From the IMG/VR virus record IMGVR_UViG_3300047095_000089, positions 1 to 23,830 of that record: 23,830 nucleotides of DNA. One strand, 5' to 3'. Below the pieces are notes generated by a model. The model worked only from the letters and a program-made list of their open reading frames with translations, made no database searches and was not told where the DNA came from. Source of the DNA: a virus. Position numbers and translations under genes: made by a program. This document shows positions 256 to 3,707 of the stretch, piece by piece (the first letter of the stretch is position 1; every line of letters starts with the position of its first letter).

Positions 256-512
256 ATCTTTTAGAGCAGGCAAGAGAGTTTCTGAATCAACGCAGAAACG
301 CTTACAAACGGCTGTTCAATCTGGATAATCGGGATGCGAAGTTAGTACTCACTGACCTCGCAAAGTTCTGTAGGGCTAATGAATCTACTTTTCATGTAGA
401 TGAAAGAACTCACGCTCTGCTGGAGGGGCGTAAGGAAGTTTTCCTCAGACTCCAGCAACACCTGAACCTGACCGAAGAAGAACTCTGGTCGCTCTATTCC
501 CGAAAAGGATAA
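252..512 (+). CDS. Bbp19-like small phage protein
   Basis: An 86-residue protein starting at an ATG that overlaps the portal stop (ATGA), with AGGA shortly upstream. The middle and C-terminus match the pattern I know from the Bbp19 family of Bordetella phage BPP-1 and relatives: LTDLAKFCRANEST, then EGRKEVFLRLQQHLNLTEEELWSLY, that is, a D-L-x-x-F-C motif followed by GR-[KR]-x-[VF]-[FW]-L-R-[LI]-Q and LNLTEE. The biochemical role is unknown to me. The gene sits between portal and scaffold, as in that phage group, so a role in head assembly or in the virion is a reasonable guess. It is predicted to be largely helical and charged, with no membrane segment. Confidence 0.75.
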   Translation: MNLLEQAREFLNQRRNAYKRLFNLDNRDAKLVLTDLAKFCRANESTFHVDERTHALLEGRKEVFLRLQQHLNLTEEELWSLYSRKG

Positions 513-515
513 ATC

Positions 516-1364
516 ATGACTGAAGCTATTGCCTCCGCTGATGGCGGGAACGGCGCTGTATCTGGCGCTATTGAATCTTCTGCTGCGCCTGCTTCTGGCA
601 ACTGGTATTCCAGTTTCGATACTGAAACCTCCGGCTGGCTCGAGAACCGTGGCCTCACTAAGCTGGATGAGAAAGCCGCTATCCCGGAACTCGTCAAGGG
701 ATTCCGTAATGCGGAAAAGTATATCGGCACTCCAGCCGACAAACTCCTCCGACTCCCTGATTGGGACAAGGCCGACAAGACTGAACTTGACCAGTTCTAC
801 AACAAGATTGGTCGTCCGAATGACCCGAAGGACTACAACATCCCCGTTCCTGAAGGCTTCCCGACTGATGTCGCTGAGTCTGCCCGTACCAAGTTCCATG
901 AGATTGGCCTGAACTCGCGTCAGGCAGAAGCCCTCATCAAGTGGAACGAGGAAATGATTTCCCAGTCCGTCGAAAAGGGTTCTGCTGCACAGCAACAACA
1001 GGCACGTGATCAGGAAGCCGCCCTTCGTGCTGAATGGGGTCATGCCTACGACAAGCAGATCGCTACCGCCAAACATGCTGCTGCCTCTATCGGCCTGACG
1101 GCTGACAAGATCGACGCCCTTGAGATGGCCCTTGGCTACGATGGTGTTATGAAGATGATGGTGGAGATCGGCGGGAAGATTGGTGAAGCCAGTTACATCT
1201 CCGGCAGTGGCCCGACTCAGACCGGCCCGATGACTCCTTCCCAGGCAGTATCCAAACTTGCTTCTCTCCGTGAGGACAAGGAATGGGTATCCCGCTATAT
1301 GAACGGTAATGCCGAAGCGCGGAATGAGATGGATCGCCTGATGCGTATGGCGTACCCGGAATGA
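516..1364 (+). CDS. Scaffold-like capsid assembly protein
   Basis: A 282-residue protein, preceded by an AAGGA ribosome site and placed immediately before the capsid region. The N-terminal 35 residues are Ala/Ser/Gly-rich and probably disordered. Residues 40-130 carry a conserved-looking block (WLENRGLTKLDEKAAIPELVKGFRNAEKYIG and GRPNDPKDYNIPVPEGF, quoted here in parts), which I associate with putative scaffold proteins of many podophages. A Gln/Ala-rich helical region follows, and the C-terminus is a short charged helix (EARNEMDRLMRMAYPE), as expected for capsid-binding scaffolds. Such proteins direct procapsid assembly and leave before maturation. No protease motif was recognised. Function is inferred from position, length and composition, not from a signature. 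Confidence 0.68.
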   Translation: MTEAIASADGGNGAVSGAIESSAAPASGNWYSSFDTETSGWLENRGLTKLDEKAAIPELVKGFRNAEKYIGTPADKLLRLPDWDKADKTELDQFYNKIGRPNDPKDYNIPVPEGFPTDVAESARTKFHEIGLNSRQAEALIKWNEEMISQSVEKGSAAQQQQARDQEAALRAEWGHAYDKQIATAKHAAASIGLTADKIDALEMALGYDGVMKMMVEIGGKIGEASYISGSGPTQTGPMTPSQAVSKLASLREDKEWVSRYMNGNAEARNEMDRLMRMAYPE

Positions 1365-1570
1365 TGACCCAAGCCGAGCTAAAGCTTGAGTGTATGAAGT
1401 TGGGGTTAGCACTCACTTCTCCCTCAAGCGCCAACAGGCATGAAGAAGTTGTAAAACTTGGAAATTTGTTATACAGTGAAATCATTGCTGTGGAACCACA
1501 AGTTCCTGCGGATACGTTAGTAGCGGAAGGCCGAAAGAAACCTGGCCCGAAGCCAAAGCCCCGGTACTGA
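1361..1570 (+). CDS. Small protein with basic Lys/Pro tail, unknown function
   Basis: A 69-residue protein whose start overlaps the scaffold stop; ATG codons at 1361 and 1364 are both possible. The body is a helical, mildly acidic segment (LECMKLGLAL, HEEVVKLGNLLYSEII). The end is a basic repeat, GRKKPGPKPKPRY, resembling an AT-hook or other unstructured nucleic-acid-binding tail, although the core G-R-P of a true AT-hook is not exact. I do not recognise a family. Small proteins with basic Gly/Lys/Arg/Pro tails are common beside phage capsid genes. Coupling to the scaffold gene suggests similar expression. A DNA- or capsid-binding role is only a guess. Confidence 0.6.
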   Translation: MMTQAELKLECMKLGLALTSPSSANRHEEVVKLGNLLYSEIIAVEPQVPADTLVAEGRKKPGPKPKPRY

Positions 1571-1586
1571 ACGGACTTGTAGAACA

Positions 1587-1671
1587 GTGTCCGGCCCCTC
1601 CTAGAGAGGACACGCCAAGGAACGCAACCGCCTCAAAGGGATGCGAACTTTGAACATAACTCTCTAGGAGG
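1587..1671 (+). promoter_or_regulatory. Capsid leader with two alternative stems, one masking the ribosome site
   Basis: A perfect 12-base inverted repeat joins CCTCCTAGAGAG (1597-1608) to CTCTCTAGGAGG (1660-1671). The right arm contains the whole AGGAGG Shine-Dalgarno (1666-1671) of the capsid gene, which starts at 1677. The left arm also lies inside a local hairpin, GTGTCC (1587-1592) with GGACAC (1608-1613). The two stems share bases and cannot form together. A nine-codon leader (1641-1667, ATG to TAG) ends inside the right arm. This is compatible with translational control, coupling to ribosome passage, or an RNA-processing site. The pairings are read directly; the regulatory role is inference. 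Confidence 0.5.
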
Positions 1672-1676
1672 ACATC

Positions 1677-2567
1677 ATGTCCGCGAATCTGCCTACCCAT
1701 TTCGTACAACAGTACAGTACGAACATTCAACTTCTGCTCCAGCAGAAGGGTTCCAAACTCCGCAACACCGTTACCACTGGTGCCTACACCGGCAAGCAAG
1801 CCTCGCCCGTGGATCAGTTCGGCGCTGTTGAAATGCAGTCGGTTGCTGGCCGCTTCAGCCCGATGACCCGTGTTGATGCCGCTGCTGATCGCCGTTGGGT
1901 TTTCCCATTGGATTACGATCTGCCGCAGTTGATCGATGAATTCGACAAGCTCCGCCTGATTACCGACCCGTCGAGTACTTACGTCCAGAACGCCGTTATG
2001 GCCGCTGGTCGCCAGATGGATCGCCTGATCTGCTCCGCATTCACCGGCACCGCCAAGACTGGCGAATCGGGTGCTACCTCGACTTCCTTCACTGCTGCCA
2101 ACGAAGTTGATGTAGCTGTTGGTGGTGCGAACTCGAAACTGAACGTTGCCAAGATCAAGGCTGTTCGCGAACTGATGATGGCTCGTCATATCGACTTCGA
2201 TATGGAAGAGTGCTACATCGGTATCACTGCTGCTGACCACGCCTCGCTGCTGAACGAAATCCAGGTCGTTTCGACCGATTTCAACAGCCGTCCGGTTCTG
2301 GTTGATGGCAAGCTGACTCAGTTCCTCGGCTTCAATCTGGTTCATTGCGAACTGATCGAAACCGCGCTGGCTGGCACCAACGAAGTCACCCTCCCGGTGT
2401 GGGTCAAGTCCGGTATGCACCTCGGCATCTGGAATGACATCCAGAACTCCGTGTCGCGCCGTAACGACCTCCAGGGTGAGCCGTGGCAGGTTTATACGAA
2501 GATGACTGCTGGTGCGACTCGTCTGGAAGAGAATCGCGTCTTCGCCATCGAATCGTACCGCGCTTAA
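1677..2567 (+). CDS. Major capsid protein
   Basis: A 296-residue protein with a near-ideal Shine-Dalgarno (TAGGAGG, five bases before ATG). It matches the general pattern of HK97-fold phage capsid proteins found with Bbp19-like and scaffold genes: an N-terminal helical stretch rich in Gln (VQQYSTNIQLLLQQKG), a region with RWVFPLDYDLPQLIDEFDKLR, then TDPSSTYVQNAVMAAGRQMDRLI and the conserved helical spine. Residues 185-240 include an MEECYIGITAADHASLL segment typical of the A-domain, and the protein ends in a beta strand with ENRVFAIES. Hundreds of copies form the shell. The leader holds a possible RNA switch, and codons look biased towards C- or G-ending codons, fitting high expression. Confidence comes from pattern plus position. 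Confidence 0.88.
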   Translation: MSANLPTHFVQQYSTNIQLLLQQKGSKLRNTVTTGAYTGKQASPVDQFGAVEMQSVAGRFSPMTRVDAAADRRWVFPLDYDLPQLIDEFDKLRLITDPSSTYVQNAVMAAGRQMDRLICSAFTGTAKTGESGATSTSFTAANEVDVAVGGANSKLNVAKIKAVRELMMARHIDFDMEECYIGITAADHASLLNEIQVVSTDFNSRPVLVDGKLTQFLGFNLVHCELIETALAGTNEVTLPVWVKSGMHLGIWNDIQNSVSRRNDLQGEPWQVYTKMTAGATRLEENRVFAIESYRA

Positions 2568-2580
2568 TTAGGAGAATAAA

Positions 2581-3099
2581 ATGGCTGTCGATCTGACTCT
2601 CAAATCAACCGCGATCACTAACCGTGAAGCGACTCCGCGTGTCTTCAATAACCCTGGTGCTGGCGCTCCTGGTATCCTTCGTGTTGTTCAAGGGTACTAC
2701 GCCTCGGTTCCGGCTGCGTTGTCGGACACTTCCGTCATTCGTATGTGCGAAATCGACGCTTACGCTATCGTTGATAGTGTTTCGTTCGCTTCGGCTGCTC
2801 AAACCGCTGGCAACTTCAGTATCGGTGTGTACAAGACCAATGCTGACGGCGGCGCTGTCATCGACATGGACTTCTTTGCTACCCGCATTGACTGTGCCTC
2901 GGCTGTCGCTCTGACCGATGTCACCAACGAATCGACGACCAACACCCTCGCCAAGCAACAGCAGCCGCTGTGGCAAGCTCTGGGCGTTTCTACTGCTCCT
3001 GCTCCTGGCACGAAGTACGATGTCTGTGCAACGGTTGATACGACTGCTGTCACGACTGGTACGGGCGCAATCGCACTGAAGGTTCGTTACACCATCTAA
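2581..3099 (+). CDS. Probable capsid decoration (cement) protein
   Basis: A 172-residue protein 13 bases after the capsid stop, with a strong TAGGAGA ribosome site and a strong terminator hairpin just behind it. It is rich in Ala, Thr and Val and alternates short beta-like segments (LRVVQGYYASVP, FSIGVYKTNADGG, YDVCATVDTTAVTTGTGAIALKVRY), suggesting a jelly-roll or Ig-like fold. In BPP-1-type phages the gene after the capsid gene encodes a cement protein that clamps the shell. Position, apparent co-transcription with the capsid gene and beta-rich composition support the same here, but I cannot show sequence homology. A head-tail joining role is an alternative. Confidence 0.55.
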   Translation: MAVDLTLKSTAITNREATPRVFNNPGAGAPGILRVVQGYYASVPAALSDTSVIRMCEIDAYAIVDSVSFASAAQTAGNFSIGVYKTNADGGAVIDMDFFATRIDCASAVALTDVTNESTTNTLAKQQQPLWQALGVSTAPAPGTKYDVCATVDTTAVTTGTGAIALKVRYTI

Positions 3100-3105
3100 G
3101 GGCAA

Positions 3106-3128
3106 GGGGGCTTCGGCCCCCTCCTTTT
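3106..3128 (+). terminator. Rho-independent terminator after capsid/decoration genes
   Basis: GGGGGC (3106-3111), loop TTCG (3112-3115), GCCCCC (3116-3121), then TCCTTTT (3122-3128). This is a six-pair all-GC stem capped by a stable UUCG tetraloop and followed by a modest T tract. It starts seven bases after the decoration stop. T7 has a comparable arrangement, with a partial terminator after its capsid gene. Because the T run is short and interrupted, I expect partial termination that lowers transcription of downstream genes relative to capsid. Confidence 0.75.
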
Positions 3129-3136
3129 GAAAGGAG
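3121..3136 (+). promoter_or_regulatory. Inverted repeat covering the ribosome site of the next gene
   Basis: CTCCTTT (3121-3127) and AAAGGAG (3130-3136) are perfect complements separated by TG; realistically the innermost one or two pairs open to form a loop. The right arm holds AAGGAG, the Shine-Dalgarno for the gene starting at 3143, six bases upstream of its ATG. The left arm abuts the terminator stem and includes its T tract. The element could reduce initiation on the next gene or be a by-product of a CT-rich terminator tail. The pairing is certain on paper; function is inferred. Confidence 0.4.
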
Positions 3137-3142
3137 CCTAAC

Positions 3143-3337
3143 ATGGCTGATCGTTTTCTCTCTGTTGTTAAGGGTGAGCAGATGGCGCACATGGTTACTG
3201 AAGGTGCTTCTACCTCCAGCGAAGCCATTGAACTGCGTATCAATGACACCGTTTATGCGAACAAGCTTGATGTAATCCTGAGCCTCCAAGCTATTGTGGA
3301 TTATCTGAATAGCACCGAAACCTCTCCGATTGCTTAA
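3143..3337 (+). CDS. Small hypothetical protein in the structural block
   Basis: A 64-residue protein with a good AAGGAG site six bases upstream of ATG. It has a mixed N-terminus (MADRFLSVVKGEQMAHMVTEG) and a helical C-terminal half (VYANKLDVILSLQAIVDYLN). No motif, membrane segment or cysteine cluster is visible and I do not recognise a family. It is the first gene after the capsid terminator, ten bases before the next gene, in a block of otherwise structural genes, so a small virion or assembly protein is possible. Codon use resembles its neighbours, supporting that it is real. Confidence 0.65.
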   Translation: MADRFLSVVKGEQMAHMVTEGASTSSEAIELRINDTVYANKLDVILSLQAIVDYLNSTETSPIA

Positions 3338-3347
3338 GGGGTAGATC

Positions 3348-3707
3348 ATGGCTGAACGCTCTGCTACCCGTACAGACCTCCAGACGGGCGTTCCAGCCTG
3401 TGTCATTGGCTGGTCTGGACTTCTAAACGGTGATACCGGCGCTGCCGTAGAGTTGGTTGATTACGCCGACAAGACCTGTACCGTTACTGGTACGTTCGGT
3501 ACTGGCGGATCAATCACGCTGCAAGGTTCCAACGACAATTCCAACTGGTTCGCTCTGACTGATGCTCAGACCTCTGCCGTCACCAAGACTGCTGCTGGCA
3601 TGGAACTGATTGTCGAGAACCCGCGCTACATTCGTCCGAGTGTAACTGCTGGCGACGGTACTACAAACCTCGCTGTTCAAATTTGCTGCCGCAGGAGTGT
3701 ACGATGA
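3348..3707 (+). CDS. Beta-rich phage structural protein, unknown role
   Basis: A 119-residue protein, probably beta-sandwich. The central part reads ITLQGSNDNSNWFALTDAQTSAV and then IVENPRYIRPSVTAGDGTTNL, a pattern I have seen in small virion proteins annotated only as hypothetical: G-S-N-D-x-S-N-W, then E-x-P-R-Y-[IV]-R-P. This resembles carbohydrate-binding or Ig-like modules that average over noisy signal in many phage structural proteins. The ribosome site (AAGGGG) is weak. The stop overlaps the next start at 3704 (ATGA), so the two are probably translated together. A minor head or neck component is my best guess. Confidence 0.65.
   Translation: MAERSATRTDLQTGVPACVIGWSGLLNGDTGAAVELVDYADKTCTVTGTFGTGGSITLQGSNDNSNWFALTDAQTSAVTKTAAGMELIVENPRYIRPSVTAGDGTTNLAVQICCRRSVR

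Follow-up and report, generated by a model that had tools for sequence, protein, structure and literature searches.

The capsid locus and its genes

The window, by which the whole stretch of DNA analysed here is meant, is a 23.8 kb virus record of IMG/VR whose gene order is that of the HTVC010P-type podoviruses. It carries the structural module of this type, with the major capsid protein gene at 1677-2567 (PHROG 3437, E 5e-68; Pfam PF19821 Phage_capsid_2, E 8.5e-67) and, immediately upstream, a gene for a scaffold or capsid assembly protein at 516-1364, which matches phrog_3742 and phrog_458 and whose pelagiphage homologues are annotated as capsid assembly protein. A small open reading frame (ORF) at 1361-1570 lies between the two and encodes a basic, AT-hook-like tail (GRKKPGPKPKPRY) with a weak SAP match (E 0.09). 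These genes, as well as the RNA helices and elements P1 to P4 described below, are on the + strand. Distant blastn returned no close DNA relatives from public phage records, and a promoter or terminator explanation of the region was dropped, as 300-3400 gave nothing clearly above shuffles.

The protein encoded by the small ORF and by its counterparts in other loci (L007, L024, L043, L112, L116) is small and has an LECxKL-like N-terminus that is conserved; these ORFs stand directly before the RNA element that is the subject of this study. Their basic tails vary by lineage and resemble the AT-hook (GRKKPGPKPKP, RGRPPKP, KKRGRPKSRP).

A helix that masks the capsid Shine-Dalgarno sequence

A perfect 12-base inverted repeat, 1597-1608 with 1660-1671, is the only repeat of at least 12 nt within 1400-1900, and we estimate the chance expectation for such a repeat in 500 nt at about 0.008. 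The right arm of the resulting helix (P4) contains the whole Shine-Dalgarno (SD) sequence of the capsid gene, AGGAGG, which the left arm would bury as an anti-SD strand. The preliminary description of this DNA had pointed to this repeat, which is thus confirmed, and had named a folding energy no better than that of shuffled sequence as a refutation. For the RNA 1571-1690 the folding energy is -44.7 kcal/mol, whereas its shuffles average -29.4 (sd 3.8; z -4.0; 0 of 200 as good), P4 is present in the minimum-energy fold, and the energy model puts the probability that the SD is paired at about 1.0, its closure being worth 15 kcal/mol.

The compensatory changes on which the same description had made its claim depend are found in the relatives. 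Fifty-two of these were taken from IMG/VR by capsid similarity and others were added through a clade-specific pattern; the alignment used for covariation of P4, P1 and P3 consists of 14 distinct leaders of close relatives. P4 is paired in 92% of the cells of this alignment, with both-side changes in four pairs, and its covariation score exceeds that of all 500 shuffles (500/500), with no slid register near it. No informative pair within alignment columns 14-23 is lost, and the both-side changes fall at columns 19-21. As these covarying bases sit in the loop of a different hairpin, P2 (see below), their covariation is not attributable to local folding. The right arms CTCTCTAGGAG, CTCTTTAGGAG, CTCTTGAGGAG, CTCGATAGGAG, CTCGTTAGGAG, CTCTATAGGAG and CTCATCAGGAG each have a left arm to match, and RNAalifold, unaided, returns P4 together with an inner hairpin, P3.

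P3 spans 1617-1651 between the competing element and the SD (1617-1620/1648-1651, 1623-1626/1642-1645 and 1628-1629/1639-1640). Its column pairs 40/63, 42/61 and 44/59 of the alignment change in a compensatory manner; it fits both states of the leader, and is seen in the window's clade only, with a highly conserved loop (GCCUNAAA). The sequence of this loop at 1630-1639 (CGCCUNAAA-GG) is near-invariant in the 14 relatives despite the covarying stem, and is perhaps a tertiary contact or a binding site. An H-type pseudoknot AAAG/CUUU in P3 was considered and rejected, because its geometry (a 2-nt loop across 7 bp) is unfavourable and a nested pairing with AAGG fits better.

One way of opening P4 was proposed in the preliminary description, namely the passage of a ribosome along a nine-codon frame at 1641-1667. 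Such a frame is present, with its stop codon inside the right arm of P4. However, only 1 of the 14 clade members, the window itself, has its ATG, which falls at an unpaired mismatch column of P3, and AAAGGG abuts this ATG with zero spacing, leaving the frame no spaced SD. As the start codon is private to the window, the upstream-frame mechanism is rejected; the alignment effectively refutes it and makes it scarcely credible.

The competing element at 1593-1616

The preliminary description had set against P4 a local hairpin of GTGTCC (1587-1592) with GGACAC (1608-1613). The sequence is there, but its left arm is unconserved and it does not serve as a competitor. The real competitor of P4, judging from the alignment, is an RNA element at 1593-1616. 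In the window it is made of helix P1 (GGC/GCC, 1593-1595/1614-1616), a single unpaired C (C1596), hairpin P2 (CCUC/GAGG, 1597-1600/1606-1609) with its loop at 1601-1605, and the bulge ACAC (1610-1613). Its general anatomy is a helix P1, one pyrimidine (Y), a hairpin P2, a four-base bulge RYAM and the return strand P1'. The pairing of P1 is kept in several of the 14 relatives through both-side changes from GC to AU.

The left arm of P4 covers the 5' strand and the loop of P2 entirely and most of its 3' strand. As P4 thus uses up P2, the P4 state and the element state are mutually exclusive. The earlier proposal that the leader is switchable, with two states controlling access to the capsid SD, is well supported, since both of the alternative pairings covary, and the capsid leader is likely to be such a switch.

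A family of elements in capsid leaders

Of 76 distinct capsid leaders, 63 satisfy a strict descriptor of the element (a P1 with three or more pairs, then Y, P2, RYAM and P1', with the pyrimidine and the first bulge base restricted to C/A or U/G); after dinucleotide shuffling the number is 1.6. When leaders are picked by protein similarity alone, 42 of 53 distinct ones carry the element (the shuffled mean of 1.6 refers to all 76), and about one fifth fail the strict descriptor. In these counts near-duplicates were removed and the remaining related phages were treated as separate, although shared ancestry means that they are not independent; start codons were assigned by rule, and the loci L058-L097 and L135-L148, which were picked for holding the motif, are left out where stated.

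Very distant relatives show the same anatomy of P1, C, P2 hairpin, ACAA and P1', in which P1, P2 and the loop are variable. With the loop sequence left unconstrained, C opposite A-C/U-A-A/C still predominates, and the pyrimidine and first bulge base are C/A in 28 cases and U/G in 3, against 0 C/G and 1 U/A. This exchange of C/A for U/G is what interchangeable A.C and G.U wobble pairs would produce. Conservation of the internal loop, C/ACAA or U/GCAA, extends from relatives of more than 80% identity to those of about 30%. The leaders thus possess a conserved structured core with covariation, as a two-state cis-regulatory leader would.

The 400 nt before the capsid gene hold 65 sense copies and 6 antisense ones, and copies are rare elsewhere. 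Several leaders carry two to four copies in tandem, and a circularly permuted form (P-ACAA-hairpin-C-P') is found in 17 of the 76 leaders, against 0.75 in shuffles. The exact sequence GGCCCCGNRAGGACAAGCC occurs in 40 stretches of IMG/VR, most of them directly upstream of the window's capsid family. A pattern close to it had 13 matches in GTDB genomes (257 billion bases), none adjoining this capsid family; the number is chance-like, and the motif was accordingly rejected as a widespread bacterial element. Two further patterns were written by rule and copied from no sequence, one for a covaried core (GGG-U-CC-GNRA-GG-GCAA-CCC) and one for a permuted core. Each had 7 matches, of which 4 lie 60-66 nt (covaried) and 4 lie 81-134 nt (permuted) before a capsid gene, so that together 8 of 14 are at new loci 60-134 nt before capsid genes. 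Some of the other matches look like ordinary coding sequence, and L144 was rejected as an extra capsid locus, its downstream ORFs not being capsid-like.

A conserved core joined to lineage-specific anti-SD platforms is riboswitch-like anatomy, and tandem copies occur. Hence the C/ACAA loop could be thought to bind a small molecule or nucleotide signalling the state of the host, and the leader to open the capsid SD in response. In the loci examined, however, no association with metabolic-pathway genes was found, and the specific copies are those at capsid leaders and scaffold gene starts. The core is also very small (5 non-Watson-Crick nucleotides) and tolerates permutation, which suits recognition by a protein better. 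Moreover, the element is absent from Rfam: in a scan with Rfam 15 to E 5 the window showed nothing but a nadA match, below threshold and far from the leader, and 13 relatives had no match at the gathering threshold. A metabolite riboswitch is therefore improbable.

Three other structures were noticed in passing. A strong hairpin at 3098-3130, just past the gene after the capsid gene (AAGG-GCAA-GGGGGC-UUCG-GCCCCC-U-CCUU), has the permuted U/G form with a score of 28; it was not found at the corresponding place in relatives, and may just as well have arisen by chance or be a hairpin for processing or of a terminator-like kind. At L070 (2004-3317) and L077 a 437-aa ORF is preceded, at about 106 nt, by the exact element. 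This ORF does not match the window's capsid family and has weak matches (E 0.04 and 0.11) to two other major head families; a different capsid lineage may use the element there. Finally, arrays between the scaffold and capsid genes of L013-L017, L020, L023, L029, L036, L051 and L052 contain further recurring hairpins, among them GCAGGGAAGACUGC and GCGGGAACUC-AUAA-GAGCCGC, which may be a second kind of element.

Co-evolution of the element with the Shine-Dalgarno sequence

In 41 leaders outside the window's clade, duplexes between an element and its own SD are more stable than duplexes formed between phages (z -7.0), and in the protein-selected subset the value is z -5.4. As controls, the stretch just upstream of the element gave z -0.5, and its duplexes with the element gave z +1.7; G+C content was rejected as the cause of the complementarity because these control stretches carry no signal. 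The part of the element that masks the SD differs in other lineages, as do the strands of the helix, for example GACAAGCCC/GGGCUUGUC in L030. Taken singly, leaders often fall short of significance, with 20 of 63 below 0.05. Across lineages, then, there is an alternative helix that would expose or hide the SD and that excludes the core.

This complementarity bears on another reading of the leader. Messages of T7 are processed by RNase III, and P4 with P3 makes a long, partly double-stranded stem, at which RNase III or another activity might trim or stabilise the capsid mRNA. Cleavage has no need of selection on two incompatible pairings or of complementarity to the SD, and in other clades the element frequently measures just 19-25 nt and has a tetraloop. 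Nothing specific speaks for a processing site, which is a decidedly improbable account of the leader.

A copy at the start of the scaffold gene

Copies of the element peak a second time where the scaffold gene begins, most often +14 or +15 from its ATG. The strict form is present there in 19 of 67 distinct genes, against a mean of 1.2 (maximum 4) in 200 synonymous recodings, which preserve the protein and the codon usage. Likewise, pelagiphages carry the permuted form at +11 of the scaffold gene, and the scaffold-start copies, inspected by eye, obey the C/A-or-U/G rule. The window's own copy is at 531-554, with P1 GCC (531-533)/GGC (552-554), U534, P2 CCGC (535-538)/GCGG (544-547) and the bulge GAAC (548-551). 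This bulge puts it below the strict descriptor; it was recognised by eye from its position and pairing, and is the weakest entry among the parts listed here, while the same position in relatives shows the strict form.

The scaffold copies encode N-terminal peptides such as GSAPAGNP, APxxGQG and ASADGGNG (for example at the starts in L061, L012, L036, L117 and L001), which seem to be dictated by the encoded RNA fold and not by protein function. Such peptides (APAGQG and GSAPAGNP among them) and the tandem copies would also suit a repeat that acts as DNA, in recombination or packaging, or as a conserved stretch of protein, with no role for RNA. The strong bias to the sense strand and the wobble-type covariation from C/A to U/G speak against this, as do the compensatory changes in P1, P3 and P4 and the co-evolution with the SD, and the scaffold copy is destroyed by synonymous recoding. 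A feature of the DNA or protein level is thus very improbable. Comparison among the phages shows both leader helices to be, as far as aligned sequences can tell, under selection and mutually exclusive, with the element recurring at the scaffold start.

A probable switch and its candidate ligand

In the proposed switch, pairing of 1597-1608 with 1660-1671 (P4) would hide the SD and turn the capsid gene off, and folding of 1593-1616 as P1-Y-P2-RYAM-P1' would consume the anti-SD strand, free the SD and turn the gene on. In the energy model the SD-closed state is preferred by 7-16 kcal/mol in the window's clade, and so the open state must come from a factor or from co-transcriptional folding. The second of these would allow a kinetic timer without a ligand, in which the element, being 5' of the SD, forms first and leaves the SD open until the RNA rearranges to the stabler P4, giving a burst of translation before shut-off. 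That the model strongly prefers the closed state, P4 being far more stable than any SD-open fold, speaks for the timer. It leaves unexplained, however, why a specific internal loop is retained over so wide a range of identity, and likewise the permuted form, the tandem arrays of up to 4 copies and the copy in the scaffold gene; we regard it as unlikely.

The reading preferred here, with moderate confidence and from sequence comparison, is a two-state cis-regulatory RNA with a candidate trans-acting factor. Such a factor would read the internal loop, in which a pyrimidine stands opposite RYAM, and shift the balance between the states, the folding or binding of the element opening the capsid SD. 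A protein fits as ligand because the internal loop is small and permutable, and there is perhaps an even chance that some protein plays this part. The best guess is a head-assembly protein of the phage, with the scaffold protein as first candidate, a specific choice that is tentative and has the chances somewhat against it. It would give a sensible feedback logic, for which the autoregulation of P22 gp8 is a precedent: free scaffold protein would open the capsid SD and, bound about 15 nt inside its own gene, would repress its own translation, since binding at that place is more likely to hinder initiation. More doubtful still is a single head protein, the scaffold protein, that recognises one internal-loop motif in both genes to opposite effect, blocking its own gene and activating that of the capsid. 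The presence of the same fold at the scaffold and capsid genes is only suggestive as a sign of an autogenous operator. The small basic protein of 1361-1570 is a possible RNA binder but not a universal one; it was rejected as universal ligand, as ORFs resembling it are found in only about half of the loci.

Relation to known systems

Autogenous translational operators are known in phage T4, for example the gp32 pseudoknot and the gp43 hairpin (PMC3014915). As in these, structured RNA near the initiation region would control the translation of a phage gene. A phage protein is the usual ligand of the T4 operators, whereas that of the window's element is only putative; the element further differs in freeing an SD by excluding an anti-SD helix, in serving two structural genes, and in being permutable and found in tandem arrays. 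Other examples include the leaders of T4 genes e, soc, 49 and I-TevI, which have SD-sequestering helices, those of gene e and I-TevI being described as dependent on the length of the transcript, with long early and short late messages (PMC3014915). The window's leader similarly hides the SD in a helix but, unlike those of gene e and I-TevI, holds a conserved competing element and a helix that are mutually exclusive within one leader.

The scaffolding protein of P22 (gp8) is post-transcriptionally autoregulated, so that the level of scaffold feeds back to match that of the coat protein. To our knowledge no such RNA element is known for P22, while in the window's group the same RNA fold is on both the scaffold and the capsid messages. 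The element resembles translational riboswitches in joining a conserved core domain to a variable anti-SD expression platform, and differs from them in its non-metabolic gene context, tiny core and putative ligand. A further likeness is to the pelagiphage HTVC010P (NC_020481), which shares the gene order and capsid family and has a permuted element both where the scaffold gene begins and ahead of the capsid gene. Its capsid is about 38% identical to the window's, and the anti-SD pairing described above is that of the window's clade.

No earlier description of the element was found in the literature searched, most subscription journals lying outside it. Masking of the SD and autogenous leaders are already known, but we know of no other phage group in which both head genes share a permutable element. 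In our reading the element would be a new cis-regulatory RNA that many short-tailed phages, a large group, have in common. It would also be a small RNA-recognition motif that tolerates permutation, maybe with a cognate protein, and an RNA family to be added to annotation. The tuning of scaffold against capsid in tailed phages is a long-standing question, which a shared element at these two genes makes directly testable. The findings suggest that these phages balance the production of shell and scaffold through RNA; if one head protein does act at both genes, an RNA circuit would set the scaffold-to-coat ratio across a very abundant phage group.
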